Notes under the pieces: generated by a model
The model's input: only the letters and a program-made list of their open reading frames with translations
Databases searched by the model: none
What the model was told of the DNA's origin: nothing
Source of the DNA: Psychrilyobacter piezotolerans
GTDB taxonomy: Bacteria; Fusobacteriota; Fusobacteriia; Fusobacteriales; Fusobacteriaceae
DNA: 64,000 bases
Assembly: GCF_003391055.1 (NCBI RefSeq)
Contig: NZ_QUAJ01000009.1
Coordinates: 1-64,000, forward strand
Direction of reading: 5' to 3'
Position numbers and translations under genes: made by a program
Shown: piece by piece, positions 28,462-35,022 of the stretch
Numbering within the stretch: position 1 is the first letter of the stretch
Layout of the letters: each line of letters begins with the position of its first letter

Positions 28462-29474
28462 TATTCGCCTCCTAAACTCATATTTTTAATTATTATATCC
28501 AATATTTCATCGGAAGTTTTATCAGTTTTAAATCCAGCCGCCTTAACATGACCGCCGCCGCCCAAAAGACCAGCCAGGGCATTTACATCTACATCATATT
28601 TAGACCTGAAACTTCCCTTGATATGCCCCTTATCCTCCCTGAGAAAGAGGGATACACTTGCATTTTCATAGGAAAGGAGGAGTTCTCCCAGGCCACCGGT
28701 ATCATCTTTACCAGCTCCTAATTCAGATAGTTCCGCCTCACTGATATAATAGTACACCAACTTATGGCTGTCTACAAATTTAAAATCGGATAAAACCCGG
28801 CCTGTTAATTTTAGTTTTTCCATGGATTTGGTGTTAAAAAAGTTTTTGATAACTTCATCTGGTTCTACCCCATATTCCAGAAGCTCGGAAGCTGTCTTAA
28901 AAACTTTTTTAGTGGTATTTGAATGTTTAAAATTACCGGTATCATTGACTATACCTGTGTAGAGAGACTCTGCTATTCCGTGGTCCAGTTCGATCCCTGC
29001 TTCTTTAAAAAAATCAAATAAAATCTCTGAAGTGGATGAAATGTCTCCTACATAGTTGTAATCTCCAAACCTGTCGTTACTGATATGGTGATCGATATTT
29101 ATAACTTTAGTATTTTCGCCCTTTAATTCTCCTACCCTTCCAATTCTGTCAAAGTTACCGCTGTCAAGACAGATCATAAGGTCAAACTCATATTTCGAAT
29201 CGTAGTTTCCGAATTCTTCAATGAGGATAGAGTGGGTTAAAAACTTTAAATTTTTAGGGGTTTTATCCTCCAAGATAAATCTTAAAGTTTTATCCAGGTA
29301 GATCTCACCCCTCCCTTCAGTTTGCTTTTTTAAAGTTTCATTTAATTTATTCAGAGCTAAAAGCAGAGCTAACCCGCTCCCTATGGCATCTCCATCGGGG
29401 CTGGTATGTCCTGTAATTAATATTCTATTACTTTTTTTTATAACCTCCAATATCTCACTAAACTTATTGTTCAT
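28461..29474 (-). CDS. nrnA: DHH/DHHA1 phosphoesterase, NrnA-like (oligoribonuclease/pAp phosphatase)
   Basis: A 337-residue enzyme with the DHH motifs TGHTSPDGDAIGSGLALLLA, DLMICLDSGNFDRIG, VINIDHHISNDRFG and the GGGGHVKAAG of the DHHA1 domain. NrnA degrades nano-RNA and 3'-phosphoadenosine-5'-phosphate; the short spacing between domains fits that subgroup rather than RecJ. It overlaps the FolK-DUF523 gene by 11 bases. Confidence 0.88.
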   Translation of the reverse strand: MNNKFSEILEVIKKSNRILITGHTSPDGDAIGSGLALLLALNKLNETLKKQTEGRGEIYLDKTLRFILEDKTPKNLKFLTHSILIEEFGNYDSKYEFDLMICLDSGNFDRIGRVGELKGENTKVINIDHHISNDRFGDYNYVGDISSTSEILFDFFKEAGIELDHGIAESLYTGIVNDTGNFKHSNTTKKVFKTASELLEYGVEPDEVIKNFFNTKSMEKLKLTGRVLSDFKFVDSHKLVYYYISEAELSELGAGKDDTGGLGELLLSYENASVSLFLREDKGHIKGSFRSKYDVDVNALAGLLGGGGHVKAAGFKTDKTSDEILDIIIKNMSLGGE

Positions 29475-30357
29475 CCTTATTCACCTCGATTATGTCTATT
29501 CCTTTTAGTAGGAGTTCGTCTGCTGTTATTCCATTTCTGGGAATCATATTTTTCGTGAAAGTCCCGTCATATATAGTATCTATTCCACAAGACGGGCTTT
29601 TTCCTTTTAATAGAGCAAGTTTTATATTGTTTTTTAAGGCTTTTTCCAGAGCTTTACCGGCTCCTGCCTGAAATTCATGGGTAACATCTATACCTTCAAT
29701 AGTTACCACCTTATCACCCTTTCTTTCAGCTGATGGACGGGGGATACCGAGTCCCCCCTCTACTTCGGGGCAGGTTTCTATGAATTCAAACCTGTCTTTT
29801 AGGAGTTCAGCCGCAATATAATTGTAACTGGCCGTACCTTTATACGAAGTTTTTTTCCCAACAAGACAACTGCTGATTAGGAGAGATATTTTTTTCTCTG
29901 CTCTGACACTTCTATCATTATAATCTATGATAGATCGGATATAGCTTTTATCCCTAATAACATCTAAAAGGGGAATCAATACAAAATTTCGCTCCTTATA
30001 CCTGGGATGGGGCAGAATAAGATCATCATTGTTTAACTTTAGATTCCCATAGGATATAATATCTATATCCAGGGTTCTAGGTCCCCATCTCAATTTTCGC
30101 TCCCTCTTTAACTTCAACTCTATCCTTTGAAGTTCTCTGAGGAGTTCAAAGGGTAACAATTGGGTTTTAATCTCAATTGCACAATTTAAAAATTCATCCT
30201 GCTCCAGATATCCCACTGGATCTGTTGAATAAAATCTTGAGACAGCGGTAACCTTAGTTTTTTTTAGTTGAGATATGGCAAAGATACCTCCTAAGAGGTA
30301 GTAGTATTTATTCCCTATATTAGATCCCATACTGAGATAAACTCTAGTCCATCTCAT
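29464..30357 (-). CDS. folK: Fusion of HPPK (FolK) with a DUF523 (TudS-like) domain
   Basis: A 297-residue bifunctional protein. Residues 1-150 are 6-hydroxymethyl-7,8-dihydropterin pyrophosphokinase (YLSMGSNIGNK, FYSTDPVGYLEQDEFLN, RWGPRTLDIDIISYG). Residues 156-297 are DUF523: ISSCLVGKKTSYKG, ETCPEVEGGLGIPRP and LLKGKSPSCG, giving Cys164, Cys196 and Cys257. In the thiouracil desulfurase TudS three cysteines at such positions bind a [4Fe-4S] cluster. Nothing known links that chemistry to folate; the joint role is unknown. It overlaps folB by 14 bases, so the folate context is real. Confidence 0.9.
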   Translation of the reverse strand: MRWTRVYLSMGSNIGNKYYYLLGGIFAISQLKKTKVTAVSRFYSTDPVGYLEQDEFLNCAIEIKTQLLPFELLRELQRIELKLKRERKLRWGPRTLDIDIISYGNLKLNNDDLILPHPRYKERNFVLIPLLDVIRDKSYIRSIIDYNDRSVRAEKKISLLISSCLVGKKTSYKGTASYNYIAAELLKDRFEFIETCPEVEGGLGIPRPSAERKGDKVVTIEGIDVTHEFQAGAGKALEKALKNNIKLALLKGKSPSCGIDTIYDGTFTKNMIPRNGITADELLLKGIDIIEVNKDEQ

Positions 30358-31648: not shown

Positions 31649-33550
31649 TTATATAAACTCTTTGTGTCTCACTCTGCCCTTATATGCCTTTTCAGGATCA
31701 TAGCCATACTTGATAGCTATTAAATTCATGATAGTGGTTTCTACCATGGTCGCTGCATTTCTTCCGGAACTTATATATAGTTCTGCGTGATCTACAGGAT
31801 GACCCAAGACCTCTACCTGGATCCCTTTGGAGCTGGTCTTAGTCAAATATTCATCGCTTTTTAATTCCTTCAGCTCTATTATTGCGTCTAATCTTTTTTC
31901 CTTTCTTACAGACCCCAGTCCATAGAGTGCCTTGATGTCTATGATTCCCAGCCCTCGAAGTTCCATAAAGTAAGGGATCCTGCCGGCTTTTCCTATCACC
32001 ATTCCACTGGGGTGTTCATGAAAAGTTACCTTATCATCTGTAATTAATCTATGTCCTCTGTGAATTAATTCCAGGGCGGTCTCACTCTTACCTATCCCGC
32101 TCCTTCCTGTGAGCAGTACCCCAAATCCAAACATCTCAACAAATACTCCATGCATGGTGATTTTAGGAGCAAACTTTTTTTCTAAAAATTGATTTAAATC
32201 TGCTGTTAACTGGGTAGAAGTTTGGTCGGAGAGCAGCATGATTTTCTTTTTTTCCCTGGACAGGTCAATAAAACACTGTTCAATCTCATCTGCATCTGCT
32301 ATGATCATAGCAGGGAAGTCAAAGTCAAAAAAATTGTTTAAATTTCTATATTTAACATCCTGATCCAGACTCTTTAAAAAATTTAATTCCCCCTGGGAAA
32401 ATAGTTGTAAACTTTTAGATCCATCTTTATAAAACACTTCATAAAATCCAGAAAGTGCCAAAGCAGGGTTATGAAGTGCTGTTTTGGTTATATAAGTTGA
32501 CTCTAAAAATTCCTCTCCCGTAATAACTTTTAGATTAAATTCATCGACTATTTTTTTTACTGTCAAAATCTTTTTTTTCATCTCATCACCTTTCTTATTT
32601 TTTTTATTAAAAGCGATCAATTTTGCAGTTTCTTCTAAAAAATATTCAGAAGAATTCACTCCAATTTGTTTCAACCTTTCATTTATAGCTGCCGTTTCGA
32701 TTATTACAGCTAAATTTCTTCCTTTTCGTACCGGAAGGCTCAGCTTAGGTATCTTAACTCCCAGGATCTCCTCAAATTTTTTATCGATACCCAGCCTGTC
32801 ATAAAATTTCATTTTGTCCCATTTTTCCAGATTAATATATAGGTTTATTTCCTTAGTTCTCCTGGTTGCAATGATCCCATAGTTATTGGTGATGTCTATA
32901 TTCCCGCTGCTAGTCCCCAGATAAAAATGTGTTTTTACATTACTCTTATCATAGCCGTTTTCTCCCAGCAGGATATCACTTCCAACTTTTTTTATAATTA
33001 AATTTTCATCGGTGATATACTTGTGTCCCCTTTCAATCAATTCCAGGGTAGCCCCAATCCTTGCATCTTCATAACCACCTATCAAAACTCCTATTCCCAG
33101 AATTTCAATTAAAACGTGTTCCTCCAACCTTATTTCAGGTGCTAATTTTCTCTGGAGGAAATATTTTAATTTCCTTATGACAACTGCAGTTTTATTTTGA
33201 GTAGTCAGGAGCGGTTTATTATGTTTTATAGCATATTCTATAAAATCAGGGTGGATCTCCTTCTCACAGGCTACGATAATACAAGGAAAATTATAGGAAA
33301 AGTATTTTTTTAACCTGTCTTTTCTGTCTTCAGGGGAGAGGGAGTCGATATACCTCATCTCCTCCGTTCCCAAGACATGCAGCTGCTTGTTGAGCTGATC
33401 TCCCTTTATTAAAAAGCCGGTTAATTCTGCTCCTACTCTATGTACTGTAGGGAGTAAGATCTTTCTTTCTAAATTATCCAGTCCCCCGTAGATTACAGTG
33501 AAATCAAAAGCTTTTACCAGTTTTGATAATCTTACAAATTTTTTAATCAT
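31649..33550 (-). CDS. hprK: Tandem HPr kinase/phosphorylase (two HprK units, first ATP site degenerate)
   Basis: A 633-residue protein, twice the normal HprK length of about 310. Unit 2 (324-633) has all key elements: Walker A GRSGIGKS (482-489), the following ETALELIHRGH, the MELRGLGIIDIKALYG signature and the C-terminal GRNAATMVETTIMN. Unit 1 (1-320) aligns throughout but has GYEDARIG (159-166) in place of Walker A and lacks the LRGLGIIDI signature, so it is predicted catalytically dead; it keeps the C-terminal GRNLAVIIETAAIN. Met324, the first residue of unit 2, is preceded by AAAGGTGATGAG at ribosome-site distance, so a separate C-terminal protein may also be made. HprK phosphorylates HPr on Ser46 for carbon control. 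Confidence 0.93.
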   Translation of the reverse strand: MIKKFVRLSKLVKAFDFTVIYGGLDNLERKILLPTVHRVGAELTGFLIKGDQLNKQLHVLGTEEMRYIDSLSPEDRKDRLKKYFSYNFPCIIVACEKEIHPDFIEYAIKHNKPLLTTQNKTAVVIRKLKYFLQRKLAPEIRLEEHVLIEILGIGVLIGGYEDARIGATLELIERGHKYITDENLIIKKVGSDILLGENGYDKSNVKTHFYLGTSSGNIDITNNYGIIATRRTKEINLYINLEKWDKMKFYDRLGIDKKFEEILGVKIPKLSLPVRKGRNLAVIIETAAINERLKQIGVNSSEYFLEETAKLIAFNKKNKKGDEMKKKILTVKKIVDEFNLKVITGEEFLESTYITKTALHNPALALSGFYEVFYKDGSKSLQLFSQGELNFLKSLDQDVKYRNLNNFFDFDFPAMIIADADEIEQCFIDLSREKKKIMLLSDQTSTQLTADLNQFLEKKFAPKITMHGVFVEMFGFGVLLTGRSGIGKSETALELIHRGHRLITDDKVTFHEHPSGMVIGKAGRIPYFMELRGLGIIDIKALYGLGSVRKEKRLDAIIELKELKSDEYLTKTSSKGIQVEVLGHPVDHAELYISSGRNAATMVETTIMNLIAIKYGYDPEKAYKGRVRHKEFI

Positions 33551-33584
33551 AAGCCCCCCTATTGTCTACCGGTGTCATTGGTGA

Positions 33585-33785
33585 CTAGTTTTTATCTTTC
33601 TTTTTTTTATAGAAATCATCTGGTCTGATGCTTAATTCTATCTCATTCTCATCTATTCCCTTTTCCACTATCTGGTCTGGATTTTGTTTTTTATCTCCTG
33701 AAATATTTGGAGCTATAAAATAACCTCCCAAGACAATAATGAAGATTAAGATAATCCTCCAAAATAAAACTTGTTTTTTAGTCAT
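33585..33785 (-). CDS. Small membrane-anchored protein, 66 residues
   Basis: One N-terminal membrane helix (VLFWRIILIFIIVLGGYFIA) and a short charged tail ending in KKKKDKN. The start at 33785 is chosen because AGGGGTAGAATT precedes it; an earlier in-frame ATG lies inside folC. It begins 4 bases past the folC stop and ends 35 bases before the hprK start. I do not recognise a family. A role as secreted or envelope-tethered peptide is conceivable but unsupported. Confidence 0.65.
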   Translation of the reverse strand: MTKKQVLFWRIILIFIIVLGGYFIAPNISGDKKQNPDQIVEKGIDENEIELSIRPDDFYKKKKDKN

Positions 33786-33789
33786 AATT

Positions 33790-35022
33790 CTACCCCTTTT
33801 GAATAGATCTTTTGAATTTTGACAACAGATAAAATGATCCGCAGACAACTATAACTTTCTTTGTTTTTTTAGCCAGGTCAAAAGCTTTTACCAGGTCATC
33901 TTCCACCCTTTGTTCCTTAAAGTCAGGCACCAGATCCAGTAATTCCCTTCCCGAAGTTCCCCTGTGAAAATCTTCCAATGATGTAAATATTACCTCATCA
34001 CTAAACTCTGAAATCTCCTCTAATATTCCATGTCTATCTTTATCTCCTAAGATAGAGACCATGGCAACTACATCCTCCTTCTTATATTTAGACAGAATAT
34101 TTTCCTTTAATCTGGATGCGGCATCTACATTATGGGCTCCATCCAGTATTATAAGGGGATCTTCTTTAGAAAAAATCTCAAATCTTCCAGGCCAGTAAAC
34201 TTTTGAGACTGCATTCTGTATATTTTGATCCGATATACCTATTTTTTTCAAGGTTTCATAGGCCCCTAAAAAATTATTTATTTGATACTCCCCATAAAGA
34301 GCCAGATTAAATTCCAGATTATCTATATAAATTTTAGTTCCGAAATCTTCTGTCAGTTGAAATTTTACATCCCTGTATTTTTTTATCACATCTACATAGT
34401 CCTTAGTTTTTTCCTCAACAGCAGCTATTAATTCTGGTTTAGAGTCAGCAATTACCACCGGGCTGTTTTTGATAATGCCGCATTTTTCACGGGCTATATC
34501 GGTCAGATTATCTCCTAAAATATTTATATGGTCCAGGGATATATTGGTAATTATTGAAATTTCAGGATGACAGACATTGGTTGCATCAAAACGCCCCCCT
34601 AAACCTGTCTCTAAAACTACATATTCACAACCGCAATCTTTGAAATAATCAAACATCATTGCGGTAGTTATCTCGAAGAAGGTGGGGTGAAAATTATTGA
34701 CTTCAATTAAGGTCCTTATTTTTTTGTAGTAAGAGTATATCTTTTCATCGGATATCTGCTCCCTATTAACCACAATTCTTTCATTGAATTTTTCAATATG
34801 GGGCGAGGTATATTTTCCTACCTTATATCCTGCTTCTAATAAACCTGCTTCTAAAATACTTGCTGTGGACCCCTTACCGTTGGTTCCTGCAATGTGCAGG
34901 ATCTTATAGCTGTCCTGGGGATTCCCCATGAATTTTAAGATGTTTTTTATATTATCTAATCCCAGCTTTATCCCCATATTGGTAAGGGAATAAAGTTCTT
35001 CCAAGGTTTTATCTATATTCAT
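33790..35022 (-). CDS. folC: Folylpolyglutamate/dihydrofolate synthase
   Basis: A 410-residue Mur-ligase-type ATPase adding glutamate to folates. P-loop IAGTNGKGSTASILEAGL; YTSPHIEKFNERIVVN omega loop; VLETGLGGRFDATNV; ISLDHINILGDNL; ILDGAHNVDAA. Its presence with folB and folK on the same strand groups three folate genes within 5.5 kb. No folP or folE is in the window. Confidence 0.93.
   Translation of the reverse strand: MNIDKTLEELYSLTNMGIKLGLDNIKNILKFMGNPQDSYKILHIAGTNGKGSTASILEAGLLEAGYKVGKYTSPHIEKFNERIVVNREQISDEKIYSYYKKIRTLIEVNNFHPTFFEITTAMMFDYFKDCGCEYVVLETGLGGRFDATNVCHPEISIITNISLDHINILGDNLTDIAREKCGIIKNSPVVIADSKPELIAAVEEKTKDYVDVIKKYRDVKFQLTEDFGTKIYIDNLEFNLALYGEYQINNFLGAYETLKKIGISDQNIQNAVSKVYWPGRFEIFSKEDPLIILDGAHNVDAASRLKENILSKYKKEDVVAMVSILGDKDRHGILEEISEFSDEVIFTSLEDFHRGTSGRELLDLVPDFKEQRVEDDLVKAFDLAKKTKKVIVVCGSFYLLSKFKRSIQKG

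Follow-up and report, generated by a model that had tools for sequence, protein, structure and literature searches.

The only HPr kinase (HprK) of Psychrilyobacter piezotolerans is encoded as two complete units fused in one frame, and these units appear to have divided a single active site between them. The gene lies in the window analysed here, namely the 64,000 nucleotides at positions 1-64,000 of contig NZ_QUAJ01000009.1 (assembly GCF_003391055.1). Overall, we consider it likely that the tandem is a split-site HPr(Ser) kinase in which unit 1 acts in trans, HPr is the substrate, and a short product of an internal start serves as a tuner. An earlier sequence-only reading of the same DNA had described a dead first unit, an active second unit and a preserved internal start; its observation is confirmed, its interpretation is partly supported and in one respect reversed.

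As that reading had stated, a minus-strand open reading frame (ORF) of 633 amino acids holds two full HprK units. Both match the Pfam domains Hpr_kinase_N and Hpr_kinase_C as well as TIGR00679, for which the whole protein scores 507.5 bits, unit 2 alone 281.2 bits, and unit 1 alone 234.9 bits, just below the curated cut-off of 240 bits. The gene and its parts map as follows.

31649..33550, minus strand: tandem HprK gene, unit 1 and unit 2 in one frame, 633 amino acids (ORF and domain matches)
32582..33550, minus strand: unit 1, residues 1-323, predicted to be catalytically dead with its trans half-site kept (profiles, alignment, model)
31649..32581, minus strand: unit 2, residues 324-633, which is also the putative short product; catalytic half intact, trans half lost (profiles, alignment)
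33053..33076, minus strand: dead P-loop GYEDARIG of unit 1, residues 159-166 (motif and alignment of 64 sequences)
32789..32821, minus strand: Arg245 loop retained in unit 1, W244...Y250-D-R252-L-G254, the half-site lent to the neighbour in HprK according to a statement in PMC9399212 (alignment)
32681..32734, minus strand: K3 loop retained in unit 1, together with the beginning of its C-terminal helix, P273VRKGRNLAVIIETAAIN290 (alignment)
32084..32107, minus strand: intact P-loop GRSGIGKS of unit 2, residues 482-489 (motif)
32033..32038, minus strand: catalytic Asp505-Asp506 of unit 2, equal to Asp178-Asp179 of other HprKs (alignment)
31937..31963, minus strand: HprK signature ELRGLGIID of unit 2, residues 530-538 (motif and alignment)
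31832..31864, minus strand: degenerate Arg245 loop of unit 2, residues 563-573, with Trp, Tyr, Arg and Gly all replaced (alignment)
31757..31777, minus strand: altered K3 loop YISSGRN of unit 2, residues 592-598, with Tyr for the universal Pro266 (alignment)

Unit 1 had rightly been called dead, with its overall fold and C-terminal block retained. It carries GYEDARIG at the P-loop and GRNLAVIIETAAIN in place of the LRGLGIIDI signature, which is confined to unit 2, and a functional P-loop is found in none of the 64 unit 1 sequences of the phylum, as against 64/64 for unit 2. A predicted model of unit 1 alone has a mean pLDDT (predicted local distance difference test) of 85.8 and superimposes on the solved HprK 1ko7 with a TM (template modelling) score of 0.85. 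With its fold retained, its nucleotide-binding and catalytic residues gone and its gene under selection, unit 1 would thus qualify as a pseudokinase.

However, judging from its residues, unit 2 is crippled as well, in a manner complementary to unit 1, and this had been missed. We aligned the 64 unit 1 and 64 unit 2 sequences with 75 single-unit HprKs from other phyla, which were among the matches listed in a genome scan seeded on unit 2 motifs; we took as universal any residue that 90 % or more of the single-unit HprKs share, and positions are given in L. casei/E. faecalis numbering, which equals B. methanolicus numbering plus 2. Gone from unit 1 and present in unit 2 are Pro38, Gln55, His140, most P-loop residues, Glu163, Asp179, Glu204, Arg206, Gly207 and Gly209, whereas Gly58, Trp237, Tyr243, Arg245, Gly247, Pro266, Ile276 and Ala294 are gone from unit 2 and present in unit 1. 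Of 13 catalytic-side residues, including the P-loop, His140, Asp178-Asp179, Glu204 and the signature RGxG, single-unit HprKs keep all 13 (75/75), unit 2 keeps 12-13 in every sequence, its P-loop and signature being intact as first described, and unit 1 keeps 0-5 (n = 64 for each unit). The five trans-side residues (Trp237, Tyr243, Arg245, Gly247 and Pro266), each present in 71-75 of the 75 single-unit enzymes, show the opposite distribution, with 4-5 kept in single-unit HprKs, 4-5 in unit 1 and 0-1 in unit 2. Arg occupies position 245 in 75/75 single-unit HprKs, in 64/64 unit 1 sequences and in 4/64 unit 2 sequences, none of the latter having Gly247, and Gly247 and Pro266 are likewise present in unit 1 of all 64 genes.

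Outside the N-terminal domain (N-domain), 14 universal residues were lost by unit 1 only, all of them in the catalytic core, and seven by unit 2 only, all in the Arg245 loop or the C-terminal part (Fisher p 9e-6 for this split, in which neighbouring sites are not independent). Agreement with the majority residue of the outgroup follows the same division: unit 1 scores 0.78 in the Arg245 loop and 0.40 in the core, compared to 0.02 and 0.69, respectively, for unit 2. Neither unit carries both half-sites, as a self-complementing single-unit HprK does.

In known HprKs, two subunits bind one HPr, and the catalytic site comes from one subunit and Arg245 with the C-terminal helix from its neighbour, as stated in PMC9399212 with reference to the L. 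casei complex. An ordinary enzyme uses the P-loop, His140, Asp179 and Glu204 of one subunit, and Arg245 and the C-terminal helix of the next hold HPr. The two lost residue sets match these catalytic and lent contributions, and therefore the tandem resembles two joined subunits that together complete a single site. We propose that an ancestral, self-associating HprK was doubled and that the two copies then divided the shared active site, so that unit 2 would retain the catalytic half only and unit 1 the trans half only. The tandem would be a built-in heterodimer with one good site, in which unit 2 binds ATP and transfers the phosphate, and unit 1 contributes the Arg loop and docks HPr. From the sequences we have the tandem, the complementary losses and the selection; that the two half-sites meet in one site we infer. 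Unit 1 is probably a co-catalytic partner rather than a useless copy.

Another way to account for a dead unit is that unit 1 is a regulatory pseudokinase, an inhibitor or metabolite sensor as the sequence-only reading had suggested, and that unit 2 is self-sufficient, its changed C-terminal part working in a different way. Unit 1 lacks a usable P-loop in 64 genes and retains its N-domain, and a new motif, YISSGRNAA, is conserved in unit 2, all of which would suit such a role. However, what unit 2 has lost is what an HprK subunit lends to its neighbour, and unit 1 keeps the very same residues; for inhibition alone there would be no need to preserve Arg245, Gly247 and Pro266 in 64/64 sequences. 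Furthermore, a reduced tandem described below still has the Arg loop of unit 1, although it shed the N-domains of both units along with the dead nucleotide site. We therefore regard a mainly regulatory unit 1 as unlikely and favour the split site.

The tandem is a trait of the phylum, which the first reading had proposed to check. Among 98 genomes of Fusobacteriota, it occurs throughout the family of P. piezotolerans (f1), in three further families (f2, f3 and f6) and in one genus (g25) of a fifth (f4), and 64 intact full-length tandems could be aligned. Exceptions within the tandem-bearing families are contig-end fragments or broken genes in incomplete genomes. In one 62%-complete genome (L050, G056:C33) the tandem lies in pieces in differing frames, likely owing to assembly errors. 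The remaining f4 genomes have no HprK, with the exception of G067. This phylum-wide occurrence rules out a sequencing or assembly error or a chance fusion. Across the phylum, all unit 1 sequences fall into one clade and all unit 2 sequences into another (support 99), and therefore a single origin of the tandem, followed by inheritance, is most likely; the two clades may or may not be sisters. The ratio of nonsynonymous to synonymous substitution rates (dN/dS) of unit 1 is 0.005-0.10, similar to that of unit 2, indicating strong purifying selection on both and ruling out unit 1 as a decaying pseudogene. No HprK tandem was present among the 75 outgroup loci listed by the scan, which started from unit 2 motifs and covered up to 80 loci.

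The exception, G067, is instructive as to how little of the dead unit suffices. Its 1.2 Mb genome encodes a protein of 269 amino acids (L068:612-1421, G067:C10) in which the trans half of unit 1 (model positions 227-310, with HFDRLG) is directly followed by the catalytic half of unit 2 (134-278), so that the C-terminal part of the family precedes the catalytic core. This mini-tandem lacks either N-domain and the nucleotide site of unit 1. The HPr of G067 retains Ser46, and Ser46 tracks the enzyme among the HPr proteins compared (L089, L209, L117 and L237-L249). In genomes with the enzyme, the HPr with NGKSIMG around this residue has Ser46 in 37/37 genomes read, including P. piezotolerans itself (L089), whereas in f4 genomes without the enzyme it has Asn46 in 14/14, a count that may stem from one or two events, not fourteen. 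Because of this association and the Ser46 of G067, the tandem most likely works, even in its mini form, as an HPr kinase for the NGKSIMG-type HPr. The HPr encoded beside an enzyme I gene is most likely the substrate. On one side of its gene (L089) lies the enzyme I gene and on the other an apparent IspH gene, downstream of which is an S1-like reading frame. A second HPr type, GTSLLKLLSLG, of which P. piezotolerans has two copies, mostly keeps Ser46 irrespective of HprK (L122, L123 and L102-L110).

A second feature of the gene is the ribosome site at the junction of the two units, where the codons leading into and including Met324 read AAG AAA GGT GAT GAG ATG. The start sites are located as follows.

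33551..33568, minus strand: Shine-Dalgarno region of the main start, TAGACAATAGGGGGGCTT-ATG (pairing energy -9.8)
32582..32593, minus strand: internal Shine-Dalgarno region AAAGGTGATGAG at the junction (pairing energy -6.9)
32579..32581, minus strand: putative internal start codon ATG, codon 324; GTG or TTG in other genera

The internal Shine-Dalgarno sequence noticed at first proved to be conserved beyond chance. A junction start codon with a pairing of -5 or better is found in 62/64 genes. Mean pairing at the junction is -7.7 kcal/mol (all 64), compared to -1.9 for 1757 other in-frame ATG, GTG or TTG codons and -8.7 for the main starts; two genomes from the genus of P. piezotolerans carry the anti-Shine-Dalgarno sequence. 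The linker amino acids vary by genus, yet the site is rebuilt each time, with ATG, GTG or TTG, according to genus, at the proper spacing. Matches to an internal promoter or terminator at the junction were no more frequent than in shuffled sequence, and such elements were discarded as candidates.

The junction sequence might instead be a by-product of a linker rich in Lys, Glu and Gly, or serve to slow ribosomes between domains, with no short protein being made. Gly-Asp and Gly-Glu force GG.GA, and, as a first point against our own reading, synonymous recoding retains a mean of -6.5 versus the observed -7.7; therefore the strength of the site lies mainly in the choice of linker amino acids, and codon-level selection is weak. 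For the 4 genes of one genus the candidate start sits some six codons further upstream, and one gene has a weak site only. Nevertheless, shuffling the linker codons reduces the mean to -2.7, other in-frame starts remain at the low level given above, and a pairing of -6.3 or better occurs in only 3.8% of other 14-codon windows. Moreover, GTG and TTG occupy the start position in some genera although they make up just 5-28% of the codons for their amino acids in these genes, and several genera (L039, L045, L051, L056 and L042) outdo even the synonymous null. Selection for initiation thus appears to fit the junction site better than chance or ribosome pausing, a by-product being rather unlikely, and most likely the internal ribosome site also yields unit 2 alone.

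What would such a short product do? It would have a complete fold and the catalytic half, lacking the trans half, and by shifting the ratio of units in the oligomer it could lower or tune activity. The sequence-only reading had tentatively given it a different part, with residues 324-633 as an active kinase and the long form as a built-in inhibitor or sensor in mixed hexamers. The conserved internal start is in line with this, as are the P-loop, His, Asp, Glu and signature residues, all of which unit 2 has; however, equivalents of Arg245, Gly247, Tyr243, Trp237 and Pro266 are lacking in unit 2, and the short product would be without any trans half. No unit 2 with an N-domain could be released from the mini-tandem as a short form, yet its genome kept Ser46 in HPr, and kinase function hence does without a short product. 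We consider a short active kinase very unlikely; because the trans half is lacking, 324-633 alone is predicted to have little or no kinase activity, and a tuner is more likely than an independent kinase. Our most specific proposal is that complementary decay split a shared site between fused copies, neither half working alone, and that the internal start adds a subunit with the catalytic half only, which sets the number of complete sites in the oligomer. This we put forward tentatively, as a serious possibility rather than a likely one.

Further points belong on the same side of the balance as the synonymous recoding. The short product is putative, being deduced from the conserved ribosome site, and the contact of the unit 1 Arg loop with the unit 2 P-loop is likewise one that we infer. 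In place of its lost residues unit 2 carries a conserved YISSGRNAA of its own, and this might conceivably make up for the losses. The mini-tandem is known from one genome, and sequences of the same genus are not independent. The trans role itself is taken from PMC9399212, in a passage of a later paper that cites the original crystal work.

Two other reading frames of the window may be mentioned. Upstream of the tandem, a small ORF (33585-33848) encodes 87 amino acids, probably contains a membrane helix and matches no Pfam family, and at 29464-30357 one ORF fuses the folate enzyme HPPK with a domain of the 2-thiouracil desulfurase type (PF04463).

In tandems of a kinase and a pseudokinase, dead units are usually read as regulators. 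Those of the plant tandem kinase-pseudokinase family (PMC6170490) likewise fuse dead and living units, in a different fold family; unlike in these, the dead unit of the HprK tandem appears to supply part of the active site. With HprK proper (TIGR00679; structures 1ko7 from S. xylosus, 1jb1, 1kkl and 1kkm from L. casei, and 1knx from M. pneumoniae) the tandem shares the fold of N- and C-domains in both units, the P-loop, catalytic residues and signature in unit 2, and a Ser46 HPr in the genome. In contrast, the known enzymes are single-unit homo-oligomers with both half-sites in each subunit, and here the half-sites are divided over fused units. A literature search for other work on the tandem turned up Comas et al. 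2008 (PMC2405797) alone, where one sentence mentions a tandem HPrK in F. nucleatum. It is the same fusion, and that sentence reports the fusion only; the dead unit, the split active site, the phylum-wide conservation and the internal start go beyond it. One gene giving a full-length and a shorter C-terminal product has parallels in bacteria and archaea, namely Cas11b (PMC11899642), Salmonella SpaO (PMC13059759) and ClpB (PMC6168691), each with an internal in-frame start; their products are reported in these papers, whereas for the tandem HprK the conserved ribosome site is what speaks for a second product.

Following from our analysis, labelling residues 324-633 "the kinase" or unit 1 useless would both mislead. 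If the split-site reading is correct, the dependence of HprK catalysis on a neighbouring subunit becomes testable with two purified fragments, and the tandem would be a clean natural case in which complementary decay turned a homo-oligomer with shared sites into an obligatory two-part enzyme. This would mean a rereading of HprK across a whole phylum, human commensals and pathogens included.
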